From an uncultured Reyranella sp. (GTDB lineage Bacteria > Pseudomonadota > Alphaproteobacteria > Reyranellales > Reyranellaceae), in contig CALFRN010000302.1 of the NCBI GenBank assembly GCA_937919085.1, positions 1-34,276 of the forward strand: a stretch of DNA of 34,276 nucleotides, read 5' to 3'. Below the pieces are notes generated by a model. It was not told the origin of the DNA, did not search any database, and saw nothing but the letters and a program-made list of their open reading frames with translations. Below, one piece after another: positions 3,041 through 25,648 of this stretch. Every line of letters starts with the position of its first letter. Position 1 is the stretch's first letter. A program made the translations under genes and the position numbers.

Positions 3041-5491
3041 CTATCGCGCCGGAGGCGCCAGCGTGAGCGTGCCGATGGCGGTGTGGGCGGCGGCGGCGCG
3101 GGTACCGAAAATCTCGATGTAGCGCAGCGACTGCCAGCGGTCGACGAAGTTGCGGGCCCATGGCGACAGCATGTTGCCGGATTGCCCCAGCGGAATGGCA
3201 AAGCGGCTGTTGTCGAGATCGGCGAAATCATAGACCGCGCGGTAGCCGGCGCCATGCACGGCATCGAACGGGCGCGCACCGCGATAGGAGGGTTGAGCGC
3301 GATTCAGGGTTCGCGCGCCACCGTCGGACGGAAAGCGCACCGAGGCCAGATCGCGGAGCAGGGGAATGCCGTCGAACAGTGGATGGCGGTGTACGGCCAG
3401 GTGATCGCGGCCCCACTGCCAGGTCTCGATGGTGCCGCCCTGCCGGCGCGCGATGCCGTTGAGCGCACGCTCAAGCGCGAGTGCGATCGCGTCATCGCAG
3501 GTTTCGGTGACGCGGGTGCCGCCGTCGTCGCACCAGCCCGGCTGCTCGCGCAGGACGCGCATCATCAGGGGCACATTGGGAATGGCGAGTGATTCGTAAA
3601 GTTCGTCGCCCAGTTCGTCGGCAAGCGCGCCGCGCTGCAGTTCGGTGAGCCAGGCCGTATAGATCAGCGGCTCCGGTCGGCTCGCCAGCATGAAGTGGTT
3701 CCAGCGACTCATCAGTTCGCGCACCCTGGCGGCGCGCGGATTGCGTGGCGCTGGCTTCAGCAGGAGTGGGACCATGTCGACGGCGTCGAGCGTGAGATTG
3801 TCGGCCTGGATGGCGATCATGCCATAAACTGGATGACGTTCGACCTCGCGCAGAAGCTGGTTGGCGCGGCGCTGGCGGTAAGGCTCGGCCCAGTCGCGAC
3901 TGATGAAGTGGCGGTAGTCGTCCGGCACCAGTCGGGCATTGGCGTTGACCACGACGCCGCCGGCCGGATTGAAGACGCGCGGCAGTTCGTCGAACGGCAC
4001 GAACCCGGCCCAGTCATATTCACCGGTCCAGCCCGGCACCGGCATCGAGCCATCGCCCTTGCGCCGGATCGGCACGCGGGCGGGCGAGATCAGCCCGGTA
4101 TTTCCGGCGGTGTCGGCGTAGACGATGTTCTGCATCGGAGAGACGATCTTGCGCGTGGCGGCGAGGAAATCGTCCCAGTTCTGCGCTACCCCGATGCGGC
4201 TGAAGCCCTCGGCCGAGGTGTCCGAGCCATCGAGTGCGGTTGCCTGCAGCGCCAGGACATGGCCGGTCGGCGTGAGGTCGTCCGCGCGGCGCATGAAGTC
4301 GTCGACCACCACGCCGTGACGGGTCTGGCGCACCTTGAGCGATACGGGATCGCCCCACAGGACGTTGATGGTCTCTTCACGCACGGCGAATGGGCGGGCG
4401 CCGTCAGGCGTGATGTAACGGCCGGGATCGGTCGGGTCGACGCGCTCGATGAACAGGTCCTGGCTGTCAAGGTTGGTAGTAGTGAAGCCCCAGCCGATGG
4501 TGCCGTTATGGCCGAGCACGATGGCGGGTGAGCCCGGCGAGGAGGCGCCGCGGATATCGAAACCCGGCCCGACGAGGCGCGCGAGATACCAGACGCCTGG
4601 AAAGGTGAGGGCAAGGTGCGGGTCGTTGGCGAGCAGCGGCATGCCGGAAATCGCATGCGCGCCCGACAGAACCCATTCATTGGAAGCCTCGCGCTTGCGA
4701 GTCGCGGCATTGTCGGTGAAGCGGTAGAGGCGGTCGAGATCGATGCCCTGAGTGACCTCGCGCGCCAGTGTGAGCGTCGAGTCCTGACTGCTGCCCGACG
4801 GTTCGATCAGGAATTTGACACCGTCCTCGCCGATTTTCTGTGCCAGCCGCAGGCGCAACAGCTCGGCGCGCCAGTTGCCATCGAGACCCAGCGCCATGAG
4901 CTTGCCCCACGCTAACGAATCGGCGGGCTGCCACGGCTCGGGCCGGTAGTGGCCGCCCGACAGAAGCTTGATGACGGTGAGCTCGAGACCGTACTGCTGA
5001 TTGTCGTTCTTCAGCCAGGCATTCACGCCGGTGGCATAGGAATCGATCGTGGCGCGCGTGCCCGGCGACAGGGCGTTCAAGCTCTCCCTGGCCTGACGGT
5101 AGAGGCCGAGCCCGCGCAGCGTGCGGTCGGTGTCGACGATGCTGCCGCCGACCAGCATCGGCGGCAGTATTTCGGCGAGACGTCCCTGCGCCAGCCGCCG
5201 CATCAGCTCCATCTGCCAGAAGCGGTCCTGGGCGTGAACATAGCCCAGGCCAAAGGCGGCATCCTCGAGCGAACCGGCGATGATGTGGGGTACCGCATTG
5301 CGGTCGCGCAGGATCTCGACCGGACCTTTCAGCCCGGCAGCGTCGATGTGACCGCTGTAGGGCGGCAGGGCGCCGCGCACCTGGAAATACGCACCCGTCA
5401 GGAAAACCAGGATCGCCAGTGCGGCGCACGCCGCGAATTTCGCCAGGCCGGTGCCGAGCCTGATGGCAAATGCGGCGGCGGGTGCCGGCAC
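3041..5491 (-). CDS. Penicillin acylase family (Ntn) amidohydrolase
   Basis: This 816-residue protein matches the penicillin/acyl-homoserine-lactone acylase superfamily in length and layout: an N-terminal hydrophobic segment (about 15-35) that could be a signal or anchor, an alpha chain beginning VEILRDRNAVPHI, the YVHAQDRFWQMELMRR motif, and a beta chain that would start at Ser270 (ASNEWVLSG), the autocatalytic N-terminal nucleophile exposed by processing. The downstream PLLANDPHL and GHNGTIGWGFT blocks are also typical. It should cleave an amide bond in the periplasm; the natural substrate (beta-lactam side chain, AHL or N-acyl amino acid) cannot be read from sequence. Translation starts at GTG, three bases after the stop of the CoA-transferase gene, which indicates cotranscription and probably translational coupling. 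Confidence 0.92.
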   Translation of the reverse strand: MPAPAAAFAIRLGTGLAKFAACAALAILVFLTGAYFQVRGALPPYSGHIDAAGLKGPVEILRDRNAVPHIIAGSLEDAAFGLGYVHAQDRFWQMELMRRLAQGRLAEILPPMLVGGSIVDTDRTLRGLGLYRQARESLNALSPGTRATIDSYATGVNAWLKNDNQQYGLELTVIKLLSGGHYRPEPWQPADSLAWGKLMALGLDGNWRAELLRLRLAQKIGEDGVKFLIEPSGSSQDSTLTLAREVTQGIDLDRLYRFTDNAATRKREASNEWVLSGAHAISGMPLLANDPHLALTFPGVWYLARLVGPGFDIRGASSPGSPAIVLGHNGTIGWGFTTTNLDSQDLFIERVDPTDPGRYITPDGARPFAVREETINVLWGDPVSLKVRQTRHGVVVDDFMRRADDLTPTGHVLALQATALDGSDTSAEGFSRIGVAQNWDDFLAATRKIVSPMQNIVYADTAGNTGLISPARVPIRRKGDGSMPVPGWTGEYDWAGFVPFDELPRVFNPAGGVVVNANARLVPDDYRHFISRDWAEPYRQRRANQLLREVERHPVYGMIAIQADNLTLDAVDMVPLLLKPAPRNPRAARVRELMSRWNHFMLASRPEPLIYTAWLTELQRGALADELGDELYESLAIPNVPLMMRVLREQPGWCDDGGTRVTETCDDAIALALERALNGIARRQGGTIETWQWGRDHLAVHRHPLFDGIPLLRDLASVRFPSDGGARTLNRAQPSYRGARPFDAVHGAGYRAVYDFADLDNSRFAIPLGQSGNMLSPWARNFVDRWQSLRYIEIFGTRAAAAHTAIGTLTLAPPAR

Positions 5492-5494
5492 GTT

Positions 5495-6655
5495 CTAGCC
5501 GCCGAGGTAGGAGAGTATGGCGTCGCGGTCGCTGTCGAGATCGGGCGCCGGCGGCCGCGTCGGCGGGTCGGTGAAGGCCGACATCTTCAGCGGATTGCCG
5601 GCGAGTTTCAGCATACCGCCGCTGCCGTCGGGAACCTCCACGACCATATTTCGCGCGGCGACCTGCGGATGGGCCAGCGCCTGGGCAATGTTGTTGATCG
5701 GGCCGCAGGGCACGCCAGCCTTGCCGACGACGGCGATCCAGTGGGCTGTCGTGTTGGCTTTCAGCACGTCTTCCATTTCCTGTTCGAGCCTGCCGTGATG
5801 TTTCTGGCGCAGCGCGTTGGTCTTGTAATCGGCATTCGCGGCCATATCGGGGCGGCCCAGCGCCTCGCAGGTCTTGACGAAAAGTCCGTCGTTGCCGGCC
5901 GCGATGATGATGGCGCCGTCGGAAGTCTTGAAAGCCTGGAACGGCGTGATGGTGGGGTGGCGGGCGCCGAGCGGGCCGGGGATTTCGCCCTCGACGGTGT
6001 AGCGCATGATGGCGTTCTCGAGCAGTGCGAGCTGGCAGTCGAACATGCCGATATCGACCTTGGTCGATTCGCCGGTCTTGAGGCGATGAACCAGCGCGGC
6101 ATTGACGGCCACGGCGGTATAAAGCCCGGCGCCGATATCGCCGATCGACATGCCGACTCGCGATGGCGGCTGCCCTTCATTGCCGGTAATGCTCATGATG
6201 CCGCCCATGCCCTGCATGACCATGTCGTAGGCGGGGTCCTTCGAGTTGGGACCGCTGTGGCCGAAGCCGGACGCCGCGGCATAGATCAGTTTGGGGTATT
6301 TCGCGTGCAGTGCATCCCAACCGTAGCCGAGCTTCTCCATGGTGCCGGGGCGGAAGTTTTCGACCACTACGTCGGCCTTGGCGAGAAGCTTCTCGAAGGT
6401 GGCGCGGTCGGCATCGTTCTTGAGGTCGAGGGCGATGCTTTCCTTGCCGCGATTGACCGAGGCGAAGTACGTCGACTTGCCGTTGATGAAGGGGCCGTAA
6501 GCGCGCGCGTCGTCGCCACCCTTGGGCGGTTCGACCTTGATCACCCGCGCGCCCATTTCGGCCATCAGAAGGGTGCAGTAGGGGCCGGCCAGGATGCGGG
6601 AGAGGTCGACGACGACGATGCCCGACAGGGGGCCTTTGGTGCCATTTTGGGTCAT
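5495..6655 (-). CDS. CaiB/BaiF family (class III) CoA-transferase
   Basis: The 386-residue product starts at an ATG and has the class III CoA-transferase pattern: LSGIVVVDLSRILAGP at the N-terminus, GARVIKVEPPKGGDDAR, the NRGKESIALDLK block, VVVENFRPGTMEKLG, and the catalytic region PSRVGMSIGDIGAG with Asp173 in the position of the acyl-anhydride-forming aspartate. Enzymes of this family move CoA between carboxylic acids in the cytoplasm. The family includes formyl-CoA:oxalate, carnitine and succinyl-CoA:glutarate transferases, and nothing here fixes the acids used. It lies upstream of the penicillin-acylase-like gene with a 3-bp gap. Its own leader is part of a repeat shared with the hydrolase gene upstream. 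Confidence 0.93.
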   Translation of the reverse strand: MTQNGTKGPLSGIVVVDLSRILAGPYCTLLMAEMGARVIKVEPPKGGDDARAYGPFINGKSTYFASVNRGKESIALDLKNDADRATFEKLLAKADVVVENFRPGTMEKLGYGWDALHAKYPKLIYAAASGFGHSGPNSKDPAYDMVMQGMGGIMSITGNEGQPPSRVGMSIGDIGAGLYTAVAVNAALVHRLKTGESTKVDIGMFDCQLALLENAIMRYTVEGEIPGPLGARHPTITPFQAFKTSDGAIIIAAGNDGLFVKTCEALGRPDMAANADYKTNALRQKHHGRLEQEMEDVLKANTTAHWIAVVGKAGVPCGPINNIAQALAHPQVAARNMVVEVPDGSGGMLKLAGNPLKMSAFTDPPTRPPAPDLDSDRDAILSYLGG

Positions 6656-6709: not shown

Positions 6710-7720
6710 TCACCGCACCGGAAGGTTGAAGGCCTGACGCAAAAAGGTCGCCACGTCGGCCTCGGCGCGCGCCAGGGCTGCGGGATTGCCGCCCATGGTG
6801 GCGCCGCGCTGCATGCAAGCGCGGAAGTAGGCCGAGATCACGGCCGGATCGCGCAGCCGTTCGCCGGTGTCGAGCCGGCGCACGGCGCCGTTGTCGACAT
6901 CGACTTCGGCGTTGCATCCACGGGCGCTCTGAAGGGCGGGCAGGAAGCGCGGCGGGTCGGCGATGTCGAAATCATGGTGCGCGCCGTTGTAGGCAACGAC
7001 GCGGACCGGAGCGCCCTTGGCGACAAACCAGTCGGCGTAGGCGTGGCAGGCGGCTGCGGGCGTGTAGTCGTCGGCGCCGCCCAGCAGCATGAGGATCGGT
7101 GCACCGCTCACCTCTGCCGCCCGATAGGGAATGCTGCAGGAGGGATAGAGCGCCACATGGGCCGCGAAGCGGAGGCCGCCATCGACGACACCGCGGCGCA
7201 GGGCATCCAGCGCACTGTAGAGGGCGACCTGTCCGCCTCGCGAAAAGCCCATCACACCGATCCGCGCCGGATCGATTTGTGGGTGGGAGGCCAGCAATTG
7301 AAGCGCTGCCAGCGCGTCGGCCAGGTTTGCCATCGTCGACAGCCGGGACTGGTCGCGCGAGGTCGACCGCAGGCCGCGCGGTGCAAAACTGTCGATGACG
7401 AAGGTGGCGATGCCGAGCGCGTTCAGGCGTGCTGCCCAGGCATCCTCGCGACCCTTCAGGATGCCGCCACTGCCGTGGGCGATGACCATCGCCGGCATCG
7501 GGCCGTCGGTGCCCGGCGGCAGGACAAGGGCACCGGAGACCACGGCGCCCTCCGCGGGATAGGTCTTGCGGACGAGCTCGGTCGGTCCGCCCGGCGTCAC
7601 CGACCGGAATTCGACGCGTCCGGTGCGGCCATCGGCCAGCGAGGAAACAGGTTCGGCGATCACCGGTGGTGCCAGCGTGAGGACAAGTGCTGCGATGGCG
7701 GTCGACATGGCGGTTCGCAT
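6710..7720 (-). CDS. Exported dienelactone-hydrolase-like alpha/beta hydrolase
   Basis: A 336-residue alpha/beta hydrolase with a Sec-type signal peptide (residues 1-22, cleavage after VIA). The oxyanion region is AHGSGGILKGRE, the nucleophile Ser160 sits in GFSRGG, the acid is Asp217 or Asp218 in GGADDYTP, and the histidine is in NGAHHDFD (248-249). This arrangement matches the dienelactone hydrolase family, but the classical cysteine nucleophile is replaced by serine, so an esterase or peptidase-like activity in the periplasm is more likely than true dienelactone cleavage. The stop of the EamA gene is 9 bp upstream of its ATG. The gene is bounded on both sides by copies of the EamA gene tail, which suggests it was inserted or rearranged into this operon. 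Confidence 0.85.
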   Translation of the reverse strand: MRTAMSTAIAALVLTLAPPVIAEPVSSLADGRTGRVEFRSVTPGGPTELVRKTYPAEGAVVSGALVLPPGTDGPMPAMVIAHGSGGILKGREDAWAARLNALGIATFVIDSFAPRGLRSTSRDQSRLSTMANLADALAALQLLASHPQIDPARIGVMGFSRGGQVALYSALDALRRGVVDGGLRFAAHVALYPSCSIPYRAAEVSGAPILMLLGGADDYTPAAACHAYADWFVAKGAPVRVVAYNGAHHDFDIADPPRFLPALQSARGCNAEVDVDNGAVRRLDTGERLRDPAVISAYFRACMQRGATMGGNPAALARAEADVATFLRQAFNLPVR

Positions 7721-18628: not shown

Positions 18629-19627
18629 GTGTCCAACTACCGGCTTTTCGGCTCGGAATTGTCGCCGTACTCGGTGAAGGTGCGTTCCTACTTCCGATTC
18701 AAGGACCTGCCGCACCAGTGGATTCCGCGCTCGCCGGCGGTTCAGGTCGAGTTCCAGAAGTACGCCAAGCTGCCGCTGGTGCCTTTGGTCGTGACGCCCG
18801 AGGACGAGGGCGTGCAGGACTCGACGCCGATCATCGAGCGCATCGAGGCGGCGAAGCCGGAACCGTCCATCATCCCTGCCGATCCCGCACTTGCCTTCCT
18901 CTCGGCGCTGCTCGAGGAATATGGCGACGAGTGGGGCAACAAATGGATGTTCCATTACCGCTGGCGCTACCTGGCGGATTGCTGGTCGACTGCCGAGCGC
19001 ATCGCGCAGCAGATGATGGGGGCGCAAGGCCCGTTGGCGGTGGCGCAGGCCCGGACCGCGATTGCCGAGCGCATGACGGGCCGGTTGAGTTTTGTCGGCT
19101 CCAACGACAGGACGCAGCCGCTGATAGAGGCATCGTTCAAGCGGGCGCTAGCGATCCTGGAGGTGCATCTTCAATCTCGGCCGTACCTTCTCGGTGCCCG
19201 TCCGGCGCTGGCCGATTTCGGCCTGTGGGGACAGCTCTACGAAGCCGCCACCGACCCGACACCCAGCGCCATCATGCGGACCCTGGCACCCAAGGTCATG
19301 GAGTGGGTACAGCGCATGGTCTCGCCTGCGGTGGCAGGGCCGTTCGAGTCCTGGTCCACGCTGGCGCCGACGCTCATGCCGTTGTTCGAAGAAGAAGTCA
19401 GCGCGCTTTTCCTGCCGTGGTCGGTCGCCAACGCGGCCGCCATCGCGGCCGGCGACATGACTTTCGAAGTCGCTCTTGCCGGCGCGATGTGGATTCAGGA
19501 ACCGCAGAAGTACCACGCGCGCTCGCTGGCCGAAATTCGCCGCAAGTACCTGGCGGCCAAGGATGCTACCGGCCTGGAGGCGATCCTGCGCGACAGCGGA
19601 TGCCTGCAGTGGCTAGCGCAGACTTGA
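18629..19627 (+). CDS. Large glutathione S-transferase family protein
   Basis: At 332 residues this is longer than ordinary GSTs (about 200-230). The N-terminal thioredoxin fold starts NYRLFGSELSPYSVKVRSYF with an SPYS active-site segment and continues LPLVPLVVTPEDEGVQDSTP (cis-Pro and Asp-Ser). The C-terminal part contains RPYLLGARPALADFGLWGQL, the typical GST helix. The extra roughly 80 C-terminal residues have no motif I recognise. It starts at GTG 18629 behind a strong GGAGGAG (18618-18624), 12 bp after corA. Its 3' end overlaps the convergent TSUP gene by 15 bp. Confidence 0.88.
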   Translation: MSNYRLFGSELSPYSVKVRSYFRFKDLPHQWIPRSPAVQVEFQKYAKLPLVPLVVTPEDEGVQDSTPIIERIEAAKPEPSIIPADPALAFLSALLEEYGDEWGNKWMFHYRWRYLADCWSTAERIAQQMMGAQGPLAVAQARTAIAERMTGRLSFVGSNDRTQPLIEASFKRALAILEVHLQSRPYLLGARPALADFGLWGQLYEAATDPTPSAIMRTLAPKVMEWVQRMVSPAVAGPFESWSTLAPTLMPLFEEEVSALFLPWSVANAAAIAAGDMTFEVALAGAMWIQEPQKYHARSLAEIRRKYLAAKDATGLEAILRDSGCLQWLAQT

Positions 19628-20359
19628 GCCGATCAGGGTAGCGCCCGAGACGACCAGCAGCACCAGGACGATGTGGCGGAACTGCGTGTCGTTGACGCGC
19701 CCATAGAGCGCGAGACCGAGGCGCGCACCGATCAGGGTCGTCGGCAGGCTGATCGCGGCCCAGACAAGAAAGGTCCTGTCGAGGAAGCCTGCGATGCCGG
19801 CCGACAAAAGAGCGAGCAGCAGGATGCTCATATTGAAGGGCTGGTTGACGCCGCGCTGCTCGTCCTTGCCGAAGCCGCGGAGTTGCGCCCAGATCGCCGG
19901 CGCCGGCCCGCTCAGACTTGCCATGCCGCCCATTACGCCGCCGGTGAATCCGACCGCGGCGTCGGCGGCGCGGCCGCCGCCGGTGATGACCGGCGGCCGG
20001 CGCACGAAGGCCATCCAGGCACTGTAGAGAACCAGCAAGACTCCGACGCCAATCTTCAGCGGATCCGGTCGCACATGCTCGAGGAGCATCGTGCCGACCG
20101 GAATGCCAACAATGCCGGCGGTGAGCATCGGCCAAAGGCGGGGCCAGCGGACGCCACTCCAGATCCGGGGCAGGGACTGGACATGGCCGGCCACGCCGCA
20201 CAGTGCGGTCAGGGGGGCCGCGGTCAGCGGCGACATCGCCTGCAGCCAGAAACCAAGGGCGACCAGCGCATAGCCGGTGCCGCTCAACCCGTTGACGAAG
20301 CCTGCGGCCAGGGCCCCAGCGGCGACGATTGCGATGTCGCCCGAGGGCGGCAATTCCAC
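19613..20359 (-). CDS. TSUP (TauE/SafE) family permease
   Basis: The 248-residue product is a hydrophobic protein with about eight membrane segments in two related halves: GFVNGLSGTGYALVALGFWL and TGGVMGGMASLSGPAPAIWA carry the repeated glycine-rich TSUP motif. Family members export sulfite, sulfoacetate or other organosulfur/organic anions; the substrate is not defined here. I choose GTG 20357-20359 (VELPPSGDIAIVAAG), five bases after the gcdH stop. A longer open frame in this register runs back to 21160, but that part is antiparallel noise over gcdH. Likely cotranscribed with gcdH. Confidence 0.88.
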   Translation of the reverse strand: MELPPSGDIAIVAAGALAAGFVNGLSGTGYALVALGFWLQAMSPLTAAPLTALCGVAGHVQSLPRIWSGVRWPRLWPMLTAGIVGIPVGTMLLEHVRPDPLKIGVGVLLVLYSAWMAFVRRPPVITGGGRAADAAVGFTGGVMGGMASLSGPAPAIWAQLRGFGKDEQRGVNQPFNMSILLLALLSAGIAGFLDRTFLVWAAISLPTTLIGARLGLALYGRVNDTQFRHIVLVLLVVSGATLIGSSLR

Positions 20360-20364
20360 GCCGG

Positions 20365-21600
20365 TCAGGCCCCGCTGGAGAAGGCCTGAATTCCGGTCAT
20401 TGCCCGGCCGAGGATCAGCGCGTGCACATCGTGGGTGCCTTCGTAGGTGTTCACCGCCTCGAGATTCATGACGTGGCGGATCACATGATATTCGTCCGAC
20501 ACACCATTGCCGCCGTGCATGTCGCGGGCGACGCGCGCGATGTCGAGCGCCTTGCCGCAGTTGTTGCGCTTGATCAGCGAGATCATCTCCGGCTGGGCGT
20601 GGCCGGCATCCTTCAAGCGACCGACGCGCATGCAGGCCTGGAGGCCCAGTGCAATCTCGGTCTGCATGTCGGCGAGCTTCTTCTGGATGAGCTGGTTGGC
20701 GGCCAGTGGCCGGCCGAACTGCTTGCGATCGAGGGTGTAGTTCCGCGCCTGCTTCCAGCAGAATTCGGCCGCGCCCATGGCGCCCCAGGCGATGCCGTAA
20801 CGGGCGTTGTTGAGGCAGCCGAACGGACCGCCAAGGCCGGCGACGTTGGGTAGCATATTTTCGGTAGGCACCATCACCTCCTCCATCATGATGCCGCCGG
20901 TCACCGAGGCACGCAGGCTGAACTTGCCCTCGATCTTGGGCGTCTCGAGGCCCTTCATGCCGCGCTCGAGGATGAAGCCGCGGATCGCGCCGCCGTCGAG
21001 CTTGGCCCAGATCACCAGAACGTCGGCGATCGGCGAGTTGGTGATCCACATCTTGGAGCCCGAGACTTTGTAACCGCCGGGGACCGTGACGGCGCGGGTC
21101 TTCATGCCGCCGGGATCGGAGCCATGGTCGGGCTCTGTGAGACCGAAGCAGCCGACCCATTCGCCCGTCGCGAGCTTCGGCAGATACTTCATGCGCTGTT
21201 CTTCGGTGCCGTAGGCGTAGATCGGATGCATGACCAGAGAGGATTGGACGCTCATCGCCGAGCGGTAGCCCGAATCGACGCGCTCCACTTCACGGGCGAC
21301 CAGGCCGTATGTCGTGTAGTTGGCGCCGGCGCAGCCGTATTTTTCCGGCAGGGTGGAGCCCAGCAGGCCGAGCGCTCCCATCTCGTTCATGATCTCGCGG
21401 TGGAACTTCTCGTGCCGGTTGGCTTCCAGCACGCGAGTCATCAACTTGTCCTGACAGTAGTCGCGCGCGGCATCGCGGATCGCGACTTCCTCCTCGGTGA
21501 GCTGGTCATCGAGGAAGAACGGGTCCTCCCAGTCGAACGGCTTGGCGTCGGCGCTGATGCCTTTGGCGGCGCCCTTAAGAGGTGTTGCGGCGGGGGACAT
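20365..21600 (-). CDS. gcdH: Glutaryl-CoA dehydrogenase
   Basis: The 411-residue product matches glutaryl-CoA dehydrogenase closely: [17 protein letters not shown] near the N-terminus, [20 protein letters not shown] (substrate region), [29 protein letters not shown] and the catalytic Glu387 in [15 protein letters not shown]. It oxidatively decarboxylates glutaryl-CoA to crotonyl-CoA in lysine, tryptophan and benzoate breakdown, passing electrons to ETF. ATG 21598-21600 is chosen because AGGAGAG lies just upstream; longer in-frame sequence to 21795 has no family similarity. It starts about 138 bp from the divergent membrane-protein gene, and the TSUP permease follows. Confidence 0.95.
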
Positions 21601-21738
21601 GATCTCTCCTGGCTGTCTGCGTCGGGTCTTATCAGGGACCGCCAGGGTCGCCAACCCGGGCCGTTTCGATCCGCGACTACGTTTCCCGAAGTCGAAGGGA
21701 GTGCGGTATGGTAGTATAGATGCGACCGGGGAGAGGAT

Positions 21739-22179
21739 ATGCGTACCGTCATCGCGGGATTTATCGCAGGGTTTCTTGGCATTCTGGTGTTTCACCAGCT
21801 CGGTTTTTTCATCGCTAACGAGCTTGGCCTTCTCAAGGTGCCGCTCTACAGCCAGAGACCAGTGGCGCCATTTGGCGTTCCGGCGATCCTTTCTTCCGCT
21901 TTCTGAGGCGGTCTGTGGGGAATTGTCGGTTCTTATGTCGCGCCCCGGGTGCCGTCGGCGGTGGATGGTCCCTGGGGCTGGATTCTGTTCGCAGGCGTGT
22001 TGGTCACGCTCGTCAACTGGTTTGTCGTGCTGCCGATCAAGGGTGCGCCGATCGGCGGCGGATTCCGTATGCCGGGCGTCGTGGTTGTACCGCTGGTCTA
22101 TGCCTTCTGGGGTTTTGGCATGTGGATGATCTTCGGCCTGGTGCGGCGCGCGCTGGGCGGCAAGAAGTGGAACGGCTAG
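21739..22179 (+). pseudogene. Polytopic membrane protein gene with an in-frame TGA
   Basis: Starting at ATG 21739 behind GGGGAGAGG, the frame encodes 55 residues ([20 protein letters not shown], then VPAILSSAF), meets TGA at 21904-21906, and continues in the same frame without a shift for 91 residues ([46 protein letters not shown]) to TAG at 22177-22179. The two halves together form one protein of about 146 residues with three or four membrane helices. The context AF-stop-GGLWG, similar to its own later AFWGFGMW, suggests the lost residue is Trp, so a single TGG-to-TGA change or a sequencing error. No hairpin follows, and a membrane Trp position does not fit selenocysteine. Confidence 0.75.
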
Positions 22180-22230: not shown

Positions 22231-23202
22231 CTACAGGGCTCGCGTCACCATCTGCGAGCCGCCGCCCCAGATCGGCAGGTAGCTCATCTTGACACCCGCG
22301 CCACCGGTCAGGATGGGATGGATGGCGTCGGGTGCGCGCGCGACGCCGTCGCCCTCCTCGAACAGGTAGCGCTGGATGCGCGCCAGATCCCAGCCGTTGT
22401 GGCGGAAGATCTTCTCTGCCATCTCGGGCGGCAGCAGGAACACCTGCTCGCCACGTTCGTTCCGGCGGCTCATGCTTGACATCACGATTGCCGCCCGCAT
22501 CGCCGTGGCGATGGGCGACAGGATCGCCTCCGGCGTCGCGCCTTCGCCGTCGCCGGGCAGGATTTCCGCGGTGCCGGAGATGCCCATCACGGTAACGGCG
22601 TCGGCGTCGGCCGCCAAGCCGCGGCGGGCGGTCAGGGTCGGGAAGGGGCCACCGCTCCGTTCGGCGAAGCAGAAGGTGTACTTGCCGGGTTGGCCCATGG
22701 TCGCCATGTCGCCGACTTCGGGGCGCGCGCCGCCGATATTGCGGATCGTGAGCTGCAGCGCCCGGCCGATGCTGGCGTTCGCGCGGCTACCGGGACCAAG
22801 ACAATTGGTGCCAGCATTGATGCCGAGACTGCGCGCGATCGGCCCATGGACGCAGAGGGCGACGCAGGCGGTGCCGGTCGTGGTCGCGATCCCGAGCAGG
22901 TTGAAGTCGGCGTCGAGCGTGGCCTTGGCCGCCGCTACCACCACGCGCAGCTCAGCGGGCCGGCAGCCGGCGATCACGCATTGGTAGGCGATGGCTTCCG
23001 GACTGAGATCACCGAACAACGGCGGCATGGCCCCGAGGGAATCGGCGCGTGCCGCGACTCCCGCGACCATTGCCTCCAGGCGACGGCCCGTAGGCGGCAC
23101 CAATGGCAGGCCGTCAGAGAGGTCGGCGGCTTCAAGCGTGGCCTGGACGCTTTCCCAGACGGTTGTCTCCTCGACGACCGGCCAGCCGCACCACTCGCTC
23201 AT
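22231..23202 (-). CDS. Selenoprotein-operon protein B, four-cysteine paralog of the upstream gene
   Basis: The 323-residue product is homologous to the preceding gene product. Shared blocks are LSDGLPLVPPT, VIAGCRP, LGINAGTNCLGPGSRANASI and QPGKYTFCFAE, in the same order and spacing. Four cysteines line up between the two proteins: Cys80, Cys113, Cys134 and Cys178 here. I know no assigned reaction for the family, and no signal peptide or membrane helix is seen. ATG 23200-23202 overlaps the upstream stop as ATGA. It is the last gene of the selenoprotein operon. The conserved cysteines suggest a redox or metal-binding role linked to the UGSC selenoprotein, which is inference. Confidence 0.85.
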   Translation of the reverse strand: MSEWCGWPVVEETTVWESVQATLEAADLSDGLPLVPPTGRRLEAMVAGVAARADSLGAMPPLFGDLSPEAIAYQCVIAGCRPAELRVVVAAAKATLDADFNLLGIATTTGTACVALCVHGPIARSLGINAGTNCLGPGSRANASIGRALQLTIRNIGGARPEVGDMATMGQPGKYTFCFAERSGGPFPTLTARRGLAADADAVTVMGISGTAEILPGDGEGATPEAILSPIATAMRAAIVMSSMSRRNERGEQVFLLPPEMAEKIFRHNGWDLARIQRYLFEEGDGVARAPDAIHPILTGGAGVKMSYLPIWGGGSQMVTRAL

Positions 23203-24236
23203 GAAGCGATGCGCACGCAGGCGACAGTCGTGCCGCCGAACGAGGGGATGAAGGCGGAGTGCTTGCCCGGACCACCGGCCACCGTGATGTGGATGTCCTC
23301 TGGCGTCGGCGCGATCGTAAACCAGTCGCCATCGGGCTTGTGGCCCGTGGTGATGTAGGTTTGCTGGTTCTCCTCCGAAATTCGCGAGGCGTGCACCCGC
23401 GAACGGGTGAACAGTTCCGCACGGATGCTCTCGATGGAAAAGCCGTCGCGCTTCAGAGTCGCGGCATGCTCCGGGCCGATGACGATGAATAGCGGGCCCT
23501 TGCCGTAGATAGTGTTGGCGCCGGGCGTCGCCATACCGCCGGCGAATGTCGTGAGCAGGCCGACGCCGCTCGTGCTGCCGTGGTCATTGAGGTTATGCGG
23601 GCCCTCGCCGGACATGACCGTCACCACGCTGTCGGTCGGCGCGAAGCCCCGCTGCACATGGTAAGGCGTCCAGGGATTCTCTTCCTCGTTCTCGCCGAAG
23701 CAGAAGGTGAACTTGGCAGGGTTTCCCTGGGTCGAGCGGTCCATCTCGCCGGGCTTGGCGCCGGCGACATTGATCAGCATCAGTCCCAACGCACGGCCGA
23801 TGGTGGCGTTGGCGCGCCAGCCCTGGCCGAAACAGTTCGAGCCACAGTTGACGCCGAGTTCCTTGCGGGCGGGGCCGCTGATCATGACCATCGGTGCGCA
23901 GGAATGCGTGGTGGCCAACGTGCCGTGCAGATTGAAGGCAGGGTCGAGAACGCCGCGCATTGCCGCCGTCACGGCCGGGAAATACTCCGGCTTGCAGCCA
24001 GCCATCACGGCGTTGGCCGCAAGGCTCTGCAGGGTCGGCACCACCTGGCGGGGCGGCACCGGCGAGAAGGGCCGGTTGTCGCCACGTACCCGCTCGACGA
24101 ACTTCGCGACCTTTTCCTCGGTCGGGACAAAGAGCGGCATGCCGTCGCTCCAGCCTTGCTCCGTGGCGTACTCGTTGAACGCCTCGACATCGAGATCGCC
24201 GATCTCGATGACTTCCTGCTCGGTCGTGTCCTTCAT
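23199..24236 (-). CDS. Selenoprotein-operon protein A, four-cysteine family, unknown function
   Basis: The 345-residue product has WSDGMPLFVPT, VMAGCKPEYFPAVTAAMRG, TTHSCAPMVMISGP, GVNCGSNCFGQGWRANATIG and GNPAKFTFCFGENEEE. Cys81, Cys113, Cys135 and Cys179 align with cysteines of the next gene product; Cys131 (NCGSNC) is extra here. It appears cytoplasmic. The ATG at 24234-24236 shares its A with the selenoprotein stop (TGATG), so its translation is directly coupled to ribosomes that read through the selenocysteine codon. If the UGA is not decoded, those ribosomes never reach this start. I cannot name the reaction. Confidence 0.87.
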   Translation of the reverse strand: MKDTTEQEVIEIGDLDVEAFNEYATEQGWSDGMPLFVPTEEKVAKFVERVRGDNRPFSPVPPRQVVPTLQSLAANAVMAGCKPEYFPAVTAAMRGVLDPAFNLHGTLATTHSCAPMVMISGPARKELGVNCGSNCFGQGWRANATIGRALGLMLINVAGAKPGEMDRSTQGNPAKFTFCFGENEEENPWTPYHVQRGFAPTDSVVTVMSGEGPHNLNDHGSTSGVGLLTTFAGGMATPGANTIYGKGPLFIVIGPEHAATLKRDGFSIESIRAELFTRSRVHASRISEENQQTYITTGHKPDGDWFTIAPTPEDIHITVAGGPGKHSAFIPSFGGTTVACVRIAS

Positions 24237-24751
24237 CAGCGGGTCGCCTCAGCCAGTTCCTTGGTTGCCGTCGCGATACGCTCGGCCAGTTCGTCGGCAT
24301 TGAGGCCGCCGATCGGATGCTTCACCACGATCAGCCGTGGCGTCACCTTGCGGGCTTTGGCCTGCGCCAACACCAGCGGCTTGAAGGTCTCGGTGGCAAT
24401 GACGAAGGCCGTGATGCCGCGCTTCTCGAGTTCGATGCTGTCGTGGAAACTCCACGATGAACAGCTTCCTCAATCCGCTATGGCGAGTAGGGCTCCCCGG
24501 TAGTTGGCCGCGACTTTCTCGATCAGATCCTTGGAGGCACCCTGGCTGGCGCTGTTCTTGGCCACGAAGTCGATGTTGTCGACCGACCGGAAGGCACCCA
24601 GCTTGGTCCTGATGCCGTCGAGCAATTCACGTGCGTTGGGCTTGGAATTGGAAAACAGAGCGATGGCGTCGGTCTTCCAGTTGACCGGCTTCAGTGCCAC
24701 GGCCTCGCCGGCTGCGGCCGACAGGCCGAATGTGGGATTGACGATGCGCAT
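24236..24751 (-). CDS. UGSC-family selenoprotein (in-frame TGA = selenocysteine)
   Basis: The apparent ORF from ATG 24751 stops after 93 codons at TGA 24470-24472. Read through, the frame continues GSCSSWSFHDSIELEKRGIT, then TAFVIATETFKPL and LIVVKHPIGGLNADEL, to a second TGA at 24236-24238, giving 171 residues with selenocysteine 94 in U-G-S-C. The UGSC motif, the downstream W-S-x-H-D and E-x-E-K-R-G-I blocks and the late HP-x-GG are the hallmarks I know for the UGSC (seleno)protein family. The N-terminal half (LFSNSKPNARELLDGI) also fits. Codon use stays GC-rich after the TGA except within the hairpin, where unusual codons (tgt, tca, agt) appear. AGGAGG lies just before the start, 15 bp after the reductase stop. 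It is likely a redox protein with a Sec-Cys pair. SelA, SelB, SelD and tRNA-Sec must be elsewhere. Confidence 0.9.
24437..24465 (-). promoter_or_regulatory. Bacterial SECIS element directly after the selenocysteine codon
   Basis: In the mRNA, beginning 4 nt after the UGA, GCUGU pairs with ACAGC and, inside it, CGUGG pairs with CCACG. A four-base bulge UCAU sits on the 5' side and the apical loop is AGUUU (or GUU if A-U closes). Counting the U of UGA as 1, the loop G and U fall at 23 and 24, the positions I recall as critical in the E. coli fdhF SECIS. It should bind SelB carrying selenocysteyl-tRNA. Confidence 0.85.
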
Positions 24752-24766
24752 GGTGCTTGATCCTCC

Positions 24767-25648
24767 TCAATTCGCTTTGTTCAGAGCCGCTACTACGGCC
24801 TTGGCCGCGCGCCGACCGTCACCGATGGCGTCGACCAGGTATTGACGTCCGCTGGCACGAACGTCGCCCGCGGCAAAGACCGCTGGCGCCGAAGTGCGGC
24901 CATCCACATCCACCACGATATGCCCGGCAGCGTCGCGCGCAAGCGATTCCGGCAGAAATTCCGCCGCGGGAGACTGGCCGATGTAGACGAAGACCGCGCT
25001 GGCCGGAACGGTGTTTCGCGCACCTTCGGATTCGATCACCACCGACTCCAGGCCGTTGTCGCCCTCGAGCTCAACGATCTGGCCATCGATGAAGGCGATG
25101 TCCTCCGGGTCGGCCGCATCGGCAGGCGCCGGACCGATCACGGTGACCTCGCTGGCAAGGCCGACCAGTTCCCTTGCTTCATGGGTAGCCCATCCCGAGG
25201 CGCCAGCCACGATGACCGGCAGCCCGGCGTAGAGCGGTCCGTCACAGGCCGCGCAGTGGGAGAGGCCGCGGCCTTCGAATTGATCTTCATTGGGAACGCC
25301 GAGCCGGCCTTTGTTGAGGCCGGTTGCAATCACGACGGCGCGTCCGGTGTGGAGCTCACCCTCGGCGGTCTCGACCGTCCAGGGGCCGTCGCCAGACAGT
25401 TTCACAACCTCGCCATAGCCGACCTCGACGCCGGCTATGGCGGCATCGTCGGTCATGAGGGCGGCCGTCTGCGTGCCGGTGAACACGTCGTCGACCTCGT
25501 GCAGTTCGCCGAGATTTATCAACTGTCCGCCTGGCGCCAGCTTGTCCAGGCACAGGCATTTGAGGCCGGCGCGGGCGGCTTCGGTGGCGGCGGTCAGGCC
25601 GGCGGGGCCGGCACCGACGACGATAAGGTCGAAAGTGGGTGTTTTCAT
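24767..25648 (-). CDS. Thioredoxin-reductase-like flavoprotein
   Basis: The 293-residue product has the FAD-binding GAGPAG (12-17), PGGQLINL, ATGLNKGRLGVP, the redox pair CAAC (Cys132, Cys135) in SHCAACDGPLY, and the second FAD motif GDVRA near 261. This is the low-molecular-weight thioredoxin reductase layout. The pyridine-nucleotide region is unusual: GASGWATHEA replaces the common GGGNSA-type motif, and the HRR motif that binds the NADPH phosphate is replaced by GPAPAD. The electron donor may not be NADPH. It is the first gene of the selenoprotein operon, so it probably reduces the UGSC protein or its partners. Its start faces the PadR gene across 78 bp. Confidence 0.92.
   Translation of the reverse strand: MKTPTFDLIVVGAGPAGLTAATEAARAGLKCLCLDKLAPGGQLINLGELHEVDDVFTGTQTAALMTDDAAIAGVEVGYGEVVKLSGDGPWTVETAEGELHTGRAVVIATGLNKGRLGVPNEDQFEGRGLSHCAACDGPLYAGLPVIVAGASGWATHEARELVGLASEVTVIGPAPADAADPEDIAFIDGQIVELEGDNGLESVVIESEGARNTVPASAVFVYIGQSPAAEFLPESLARDAAGHIVVDVDGRTSAPAVFAAGDVRASGRQYLVDAIGDGRRAAKAVVAALNKAN

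Follow-up and report, generated by a model that had tools for sequence, protein, structure and literature searches.

A gene of an uncultured Reyranella sp. belongs to the UGSC selenoprotein family, and its in-frame TGA (codon 94) is almost certainly read by SelB and tRNA-Sec, directed by a hairpin just downstream. The gene lies in an operon with a constant partner gene, which we named o345. We propose, with a probability of about 0.5 for the whole reading, selenocysteine (Sec) insertion included, that the UGSC protein is the nucleophile and electron-transfer subunit of an NADPH-driven reductase. The window, that is, the whole stretch of DNA that we analysed, is 34,276 nucleotides long, and the relevant features in it are the following (the name o323 was also coined here).

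22231..23202, minus strand: o323, 323 aa, overlapping o345 by four bases
23199..24236, minus strand: o345, partner family, 345 aa, overlapping the UGSC stop by one base
24236..24751, minus strand: gene of the UGSC selenoprotein family, 171 residues with Sec94; the range includes the stop
24441..24457, minus strand: SECIS-type hairpin, 7 bp, apical loop GUU, nucleotides 16-32 (U of UGA = 1)
24470..24472, minus strand: in-frame TGA = Sec94; TGA in 80/80 kept relatives, aligned with the cysteine (Cys) of the relative in genome G143
24752..24766, minus strand: 15 bases between the upstream gene and UGSC, containing a GGAGG sequence that resembles a ribosome-binding site
24767..25648, minus strand: thioredoxin-reductase-like FAD/NAD(P)H enzyme, 293 aa, CxxC at C132/C135
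27203..32607, plus strand: divergent genes of a branched-chain-amino-acid-type ABC transporter (context)

Reading frame, Sec codon and hairpin

The UGSC gene starts at ATG 24751 on the minus strand, has a single in-frame TGA at 24472-24470 (codon 94), and ends at a TGA (24238-24236) that shares bases with the next ATG at 24236 (TGATG). The earlier note on this DNA had placed the start, both TGA codons and the TGATG overlap exactly. It had also described GSC followed by WSFHD; the UGSC and WSFHD elements are present, and the two serines between GSC and WSFHD had been omitted. The Sec site reads D-U-G-S-C-S-S-W-S-F-H-D, with the UGSC motif at U94-G-S-C97. The readthrough product matched the Pfam family UGSC (PF24696) end to end (E 1.4e-34, 120.1 bits against a gathering score of 25 bits; profile positions 2-168 of 172), which bore out the family identity given in the note. 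The head alone matched at 1e-09 and the tail alone at 2.9e-16. With the NCBIfam UGSC model NF041046 the product scored 110.9 bits (5.3e-32), below the curated equivalog cut-off of 125 bits, and we therefore filed it under PF24696 and not under the NF041046 equivalog. Its likeness to PF24696 consists of the whole-length match, the UGSC motif, and the TGA with a bacterial SECIS-type hairpin.

On the rival explanation of ordinary termination, the TGA would be a true stop, decayed or mis-sequenced, and the gene would make a 93-residue protein. Translation table 11 does stop the frame at this TGA, and the open tail of 77 codons is not rare by chance. Among 20,000 base-shuffled tails 9.6% remained open, so the open tail alone is weak evidence. 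GC3 was 0.81 both upstream and downstream of the TGA, and the tail thus keeps the GC-rich codon bias that had been noted for it. The case for readthrough rests on homology, as both halves match PF24696 independently and the tail is conserved.

We scanned named bacterial and archaeal genomes for relatives and kept the best 80 of 115. By record title these were mostly Reyranella and other alphaproteobacteria, with a best identity of 98%. Records of Reyranella soli and R. massiliensis were among those that carry the gene. All 80 kept relatives had TGA at the Sec codon with an open tail beyond it, and never TAA or TAG. For a protein-level comparison we aligned 49 sequences, namely the window and 48 relatives picked to reduce redundancy. 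The results showed that the tail is conserved as protein, and the invariant columns included D93, U94, G95, C97, W100, H103, D104, H145 and P146. When distant paralogues were included (25 sequences), P6, K37, K65, D93, U/C94, G95, C97, H103, D104, F123, H145 and P146 were invariant. More distant plasmid copies break some of these, with N before U in Paracoccus and Y for H103 in Natrinema. The window subfamily reads UGSCxxW, whereas 14 aligned Sec paralogues from other subfamilies read UGSCxxC.

The hairpin after the TGA was compared with the bacterial SECIS limits given in a figure legend of PMC13188914 (loop 3-9 nt, stem 4-16 bp, G in the first two loop positions, spacing 16-37 nt, MFE <= -7.5 kcal/mol). 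It falls within them, with a 3-nt GUU loop, a 7-bp stem, a spacing of 19 nt (the first loop base is nucleotide 20 after the TGA) and -16.6 kcal/mol over 51 nt. Its loop occupies the same positions, G23 and U24, as those named for the E. coli fdhF SECIS in a passage of a review (PMC8659212), on the reading that both numberings begin with the U of UGA. Folding was better than in most shuffled sequences for the 51-nt segment (z -2.45), but not for 61 and 91 nt (z about -1).

Within the window subfamily the hairpin alignment took 51 of 81 sequences; in 46 distinct sequences 100% of the cells paired and 6 of the 7 pairs were invariant, so that covariation is uninformative at this depth. Codon entropy at conserved amino acids in the 81 sequences was 0.14 bits in the hairpin (5 codons) versus 1.02 elsewhere (51 codons, all outside the first ten after the TGA). 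None of 20,000 random codon picks had an entropy as low, and the hairpin gave the lowest codon entropy of 51 six-codon windows. The hairpin also stood at the same place in 14/14 aligned Sec paralogues of other subfamilies, where the pair at positions 21 and 27 had changed from G-C to C-G. This compensated pair, the single one seen, appeared only when the paralogues were added (GC in 15 rows, CG in 14), and it could possibly reflect one event. In the paralogue-inclusive alignment 97% of the cells paired, and 3 rows failed at each of two end pairs. In genome G277 the stop falls elsewhere than at the Sec position, and for this reason its row was left out before the alignment.

Sec forms, Cys forms and the Sec machinery

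The genome that holds the window contains selA, selB, selC and selD. The tRNA-Sec gene (71.4 bits, ARAGORN anticodon tca) lies on contig C315 together with selB (451.6 bits) and selA (553.3 bits), and selD is on contig C90 (294.9 bits). The same genome carries five UGSC genes with one TGA each. The family was present in 61/61 genomes of the family sample, 75/76 of the order and 5/398 of the phylum sample.

Cys stood at the Sec position in the relatives from G143 and G277, two genomes that lack tRNA-Sec and have no selB above its cut-off, and also in plasmid copies from haloarchaea, Arthrobacter, Embleya, Roseovarius and Variovorax. The G277 gene has the Cys form and a broken frame; its single TGA is not at the Sec position, and we did not count it as a Sec form. 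We compared the machinery of eight genomes: five with the Sec form, the two with the Cys form, and one genome of the order that lacks UGSC. G000, G139, G311, G398 and G400, the Sec-form genomes, each had a tRNA-Sec of 71-79 bits and selB above the cut-off. In the two Cys-form genomes and the one without UGSC, the best tRNA matches reached 46.7 to 51.5 bits and were tRNA-Ser by ARAGORN, and none of the three had selB over the cut-off. One of these matches, in G143 (51.5 bits), passes the Rfam cut-off for tRNA-Sec, and ARAGORN calls it tRNA-Ser. Across the eight genomes compared, the Sec or Cys form tracks the Sec machinery. In G311, contig C31, a UGSC gene (5009-5515) and a tRNA-Sec gene (7168-7258) are about 1.7 kb apart, and selB matches the same contig at 8045-9163.

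These results weigh against ordinary termination, which we consider hardly credible: the TGA is kept in all 80 relatives, the tail is conserved, the hairpin has nearly frozen synonymous sites and a compensated pair among paralogues, the machinery is present and Cys relatives exist. The earlier note had argued for selenocysteine insertion and not decay, and the same lines of evidence support it. It had proposed looking for U or Cys at position 94 of the homologues, and for selA, selB, selD and tRNA-Sec; U (as TGA) was found in the 80 kept relatives and Cys in others, and all four machinery genes were found. Homologues ending at the TGA, or an unconserved tail, were the outcomes that it had named as contrary. 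All 80 read on, and conservation extends through the tail of the 49 aligned sequences.

The note had also called the gene hidden, which is too strong in one respect, as the family is already in Pfam and NCBIfam. UGSC was reportedly first described in 2007. The family is a known one, in print since at least 2008, and what we add is its genomic surroundings. A 2026 review names UGSC, in a passage of PMC13188914, among families with functions largely uncharacterised. The passages of PMC2398784, PMC13188914, PMC9312934, PMC7539508 and PMC8659212 contain no mention of the partner o345 or the operon and no biochemistry of UGSC. A possible exception is a fusion of UGSC to a domain called 'Unknown_1', which PMC2398784 reports in a supplementary figure; the domain may be o345.

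The note had expected automatic annotation to split or truncate the gene, and some public records do cut UGSC genes at the TGA. On the Acidovorax sp. T1 plasmid p2-T1 (NZ_CP021650.1; locus L181:3422-4000), the annotation stops the gene at the in-frame TGA and gives it as a hypothetical protein of 96 residues, and the frame reads on as UGSCTSWSVHD. On the Paracoccus ferrooxidans plasmid pFER4 (CP038202.1; L192:2360-2929), it is annotated as two hypothetical proteins flanking the in-frame TGA. A model of the partner family could help to recover such genes.

The partner o345 and the surrounding genes

Adjacency was counted at loci with enough flank, on the same strand and within 400 bases. The results showed o345 directly downstream of UGSC in 76/77 relatives; at the single exception (L095), another o345 copy is directly downstream. 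o323 followed o345 in 62/71. A reductase-like gene stood upstream of UGSC in 58/77, and the remaining 19 had none directly upstream. A divergent permease gene of the branched-chain type (the first permease) lay somewhere upstream in 37/63 relatives with enough flank, and this transporter is a possible importer of the substrate. Whole-locus counts were o345 80, o323 78 and reductase-like 64 of 80; we preferred the adjacency counts because whole-locus counts mix o345/o323 cross-hits with matches anywhere in the locus. Some relatives have two successive o345 copies ahead of o323 (L079:3908-5975, L095:6559-8697).

The upstream protein resembles thioredoxin-disulfide reductase (TIGR01292), matching profile positions 2-297 of 300 and keeping the CxxC, and differs from it in scoring 192 bits against a cut-off of 343; for this reason we regard it as a diverged, perhaps dedicated, reductase. 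Its CxxC (C132/C135) was invariant in 17 aligned sequences. o323 is a paralogue of o345 (profile-profile E 8.7e-60), and neither had a Pfam or NCBIfam match among those listed up to E 10. Downstream of the operon, on the minus strand, follow genes for a sulfite-exporter-like protein of the TauE/SafE type and for an acyl-CoA dehydrogenase (19613-20389, 20368-21795); the acyl-CoA dehydrogenase had matches in 8/80 relatives, many of them with short flanks.

At genome level UGSC and o345 relatives occurred in the same 5/398 genomes of the phylum sample and the same 75/76 of the order, and all five UGSC genes of the genome studied adjoin a partner. Of 24 plasmid records with an o345 relative we examined 16 regions, and 15 of them had a UGSC-like gene or domain beside or fused to the partner. 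Two of the 15 are fusions that read DMGTS, and Neorhizobium reads CSTC. The fused UGSC-like/o345-like proteins are those of Sporomusa termitida (L183:3323-5047) and Vibrio europaeus (L184:3368-5053), which have lost the Sec/Cys and lie near aconitase X and DUF126 genes; part of the family therefore works without Sec/Cys. Beside the Haladaptatus partner, in the sixteenth region, no UGSC was detected. Neighbours on the plasmids included CoA transferase, CoA ester lyase, isocitrate lyase/PEP mutase family proteins, aconitase X and parts of TRAP or tripartite tricarboxylate transporters. A thioredoxin-reductase-like gene lay within 5/15 plasmid regions tested; trxB and trxA adjoin the partner in Arthrobacter, and trxB is among the neighbours in Roseovarius and Variovorax. 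Four of 18 partner frames (L114, L115, L116, L123) have an N-terminal extension with CPTC, CETC or CHTC, which looks thioredoxin-like; in three of these proteins, scanned with Pfam, it stayed below the cut-offs (best E 0.01).

R148, N156, D166, C179 and E182 of the partner were kept in 26/26 rows, one of them an o323-type frame, and C179 in 33/34 once o323 rows were added. Foldseek had faintly matched o345 to class I fumarase and L-cysteine desulfidase (best E 3.6e-3, TM 0.22), and several cysteines of o345 are conserved in its own subfamily, which had raised the idea of an iron-sulphur protein. We dropped it because C179 alone is invariant in the 26 rows (C113 in 15, C131 in 9, C135 in 12). 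The best VIA-align match had Z 6.5 over 78 residues, which we took as no usable match and not as evidence of a new fold, and a sequence search found no significant solved relative of o345.

The constancy of Cys179 would also suit another explanation, in which the o345/o323 pair is the enzyme itself and UGSC merely activates it or keeps Cys179 reduced. It is also favoured by the fused forms without Sec/Cys, by the Haladaptatus partner, and by partner copies that exceed UGSC copies in many genomes. Against it, UGSC and the partner were never apart at genome level in the 398 and 76 genomes. We consider this explanation unlikely, but give it appreciable weight.

Predicted fold, distant kin and proposed function

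The UGSC model (pLDDT 83.6) was predicted to have five strand-helix units, (beta-alpha)x5, with Sec after strand 3, and its best structural matches were doubly wound alpha/beta folds (Z 8-11). The thioredoxin order of strands and helices puts UxxC at the first helix, and the order in the UGSC model differs. The predicted fold speaks against, without excluding, the thioredoxin-like fold suggested for UGSC in 2008 (in a passage of PMC2398784). No thioredoxin was among the Foldseek and VIA-align matches listed for the model, which by itself excludes nothing, and no solved relative of UGSC was significant by sequence.

The fold also bears on a third explanation, a thioredoxin- or peroxiredoxin-like general thiol oxidoreductase that serves redox homeostasis and has no metabolite substrate. 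The UxxC motif and the adjoining thioredoxin-reductase-like gene agree with it, but the predicted five units with Sec after strand 3 do not. The constant partner, the several paralogues per genome, and the changing neighbours (CoA transferases, CoA ester lyases, TRAP/tripartite tricarboxylate transporter genes) better suit substrate-specific enzymes. We regard a general oxidoreductase as improbable.

We then compared UGSC by hhalign with a PrdB/GrdB-like profile of 20 sequences of the same class, one of them from the genome studied. The alignment placed Sec on Sec with 21% probability and E 0.001. The score of 29.5 was reached by 0/150 column shuffles (maximum 23.4) and exceeded that of the reversed profile (14.2); masking both motifs lowered it to 27.9, over a shorter stretch. 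In control alignments E was 0.19 for o323 and 0.25 for the reductase. We regard this weak profile link as suggestive of a kinship between UGSC and GrdB/PrdB. The one nominal solved match of the PrdB-like profile was a designed repeat protein (E 3e-05), which we attribute to chance as only short stretches aligned. The GrdB/PrdB family PF07355 did not match the product, for which UGSC was the sole Pfam family listed at E 0.01, and we did not file it as a member; this absence speaks for the non-Sec part only, because the PF07355 model stops just before Sec. Like GrdB, whose motif is UxxCxxC according to a passage of PMC13188914, UGSC has UxxC (UxxCxxC in paralogues), and the likeness to GrdB/PrdB extends to the weak Sec-on-Sec profile match and a dithiol-type reductant nearby. 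Unlike them, UGSC has about 170 residues and no PF07355 match, and its partner o345 matches no named family.

Genomic pairing, Sec codon context, Sec machinery and conserved residues are computed results; the electron path, the complex, the chemistry and the substrate of the proposed reductase are inferred. NADPH would reduce the FAD and the CxxC of the thioredoxin-reductase-like protein; the role of this protein would fall, in other subfamilies, to a thioredoxin-like part that is fused to the partner or lies next to it. Electrons would then pass from the thioredoxin-reductase-like enzyme, or from thioredoxin, to the U94-x-x-C97 pair of UGSC. The target of Sec94 would be a small substrate, probably a carboxylic one, bound by the o345/o323 pair, in which the conserved Cys179 and Glu182 would take part and Arg148, Asn156 and Asp166 would help to hold the substrate; the resulting selenylsulfide would be re-reduced. 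The substrate-binding role of the partner is a guess. Small carboxylic acids are candidate substrates, suggested by the transporter and the CoA-acid enzymes that neighbour various copies. As a working likeness, the proposal follows glycine and proline reductase, and the nearest model is glycine reductase as described in a passage of PMC13188914.

A broader reading, which we offer tentatively and at odds below even, is that UGSC and o345 form a widespread two-part Sec- or Cys-dependent enzyme of bacteria and haloarchaea. It would carry out a GrdB/PrdB-like reductive cleavage of imported organic acids with a dedicated NADPH thioredoxin reductase, and the paralogues would serve different substrates. 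If the two-part enzyme reading is true, a major aquatic selenoprotein family would gain a function. The constant partner, the probable dedicated reductase and the changing metabolic neighbours turn an 'unknown selenoprotein' into a testable enzyme system.

The genome studied also holds a second selenoprotein candidate (L148; C120:11830-12309 and on), which is PrdB/GrdB-like, with the motif PVUPAC and a GUU-loop hairpin after its TGA.
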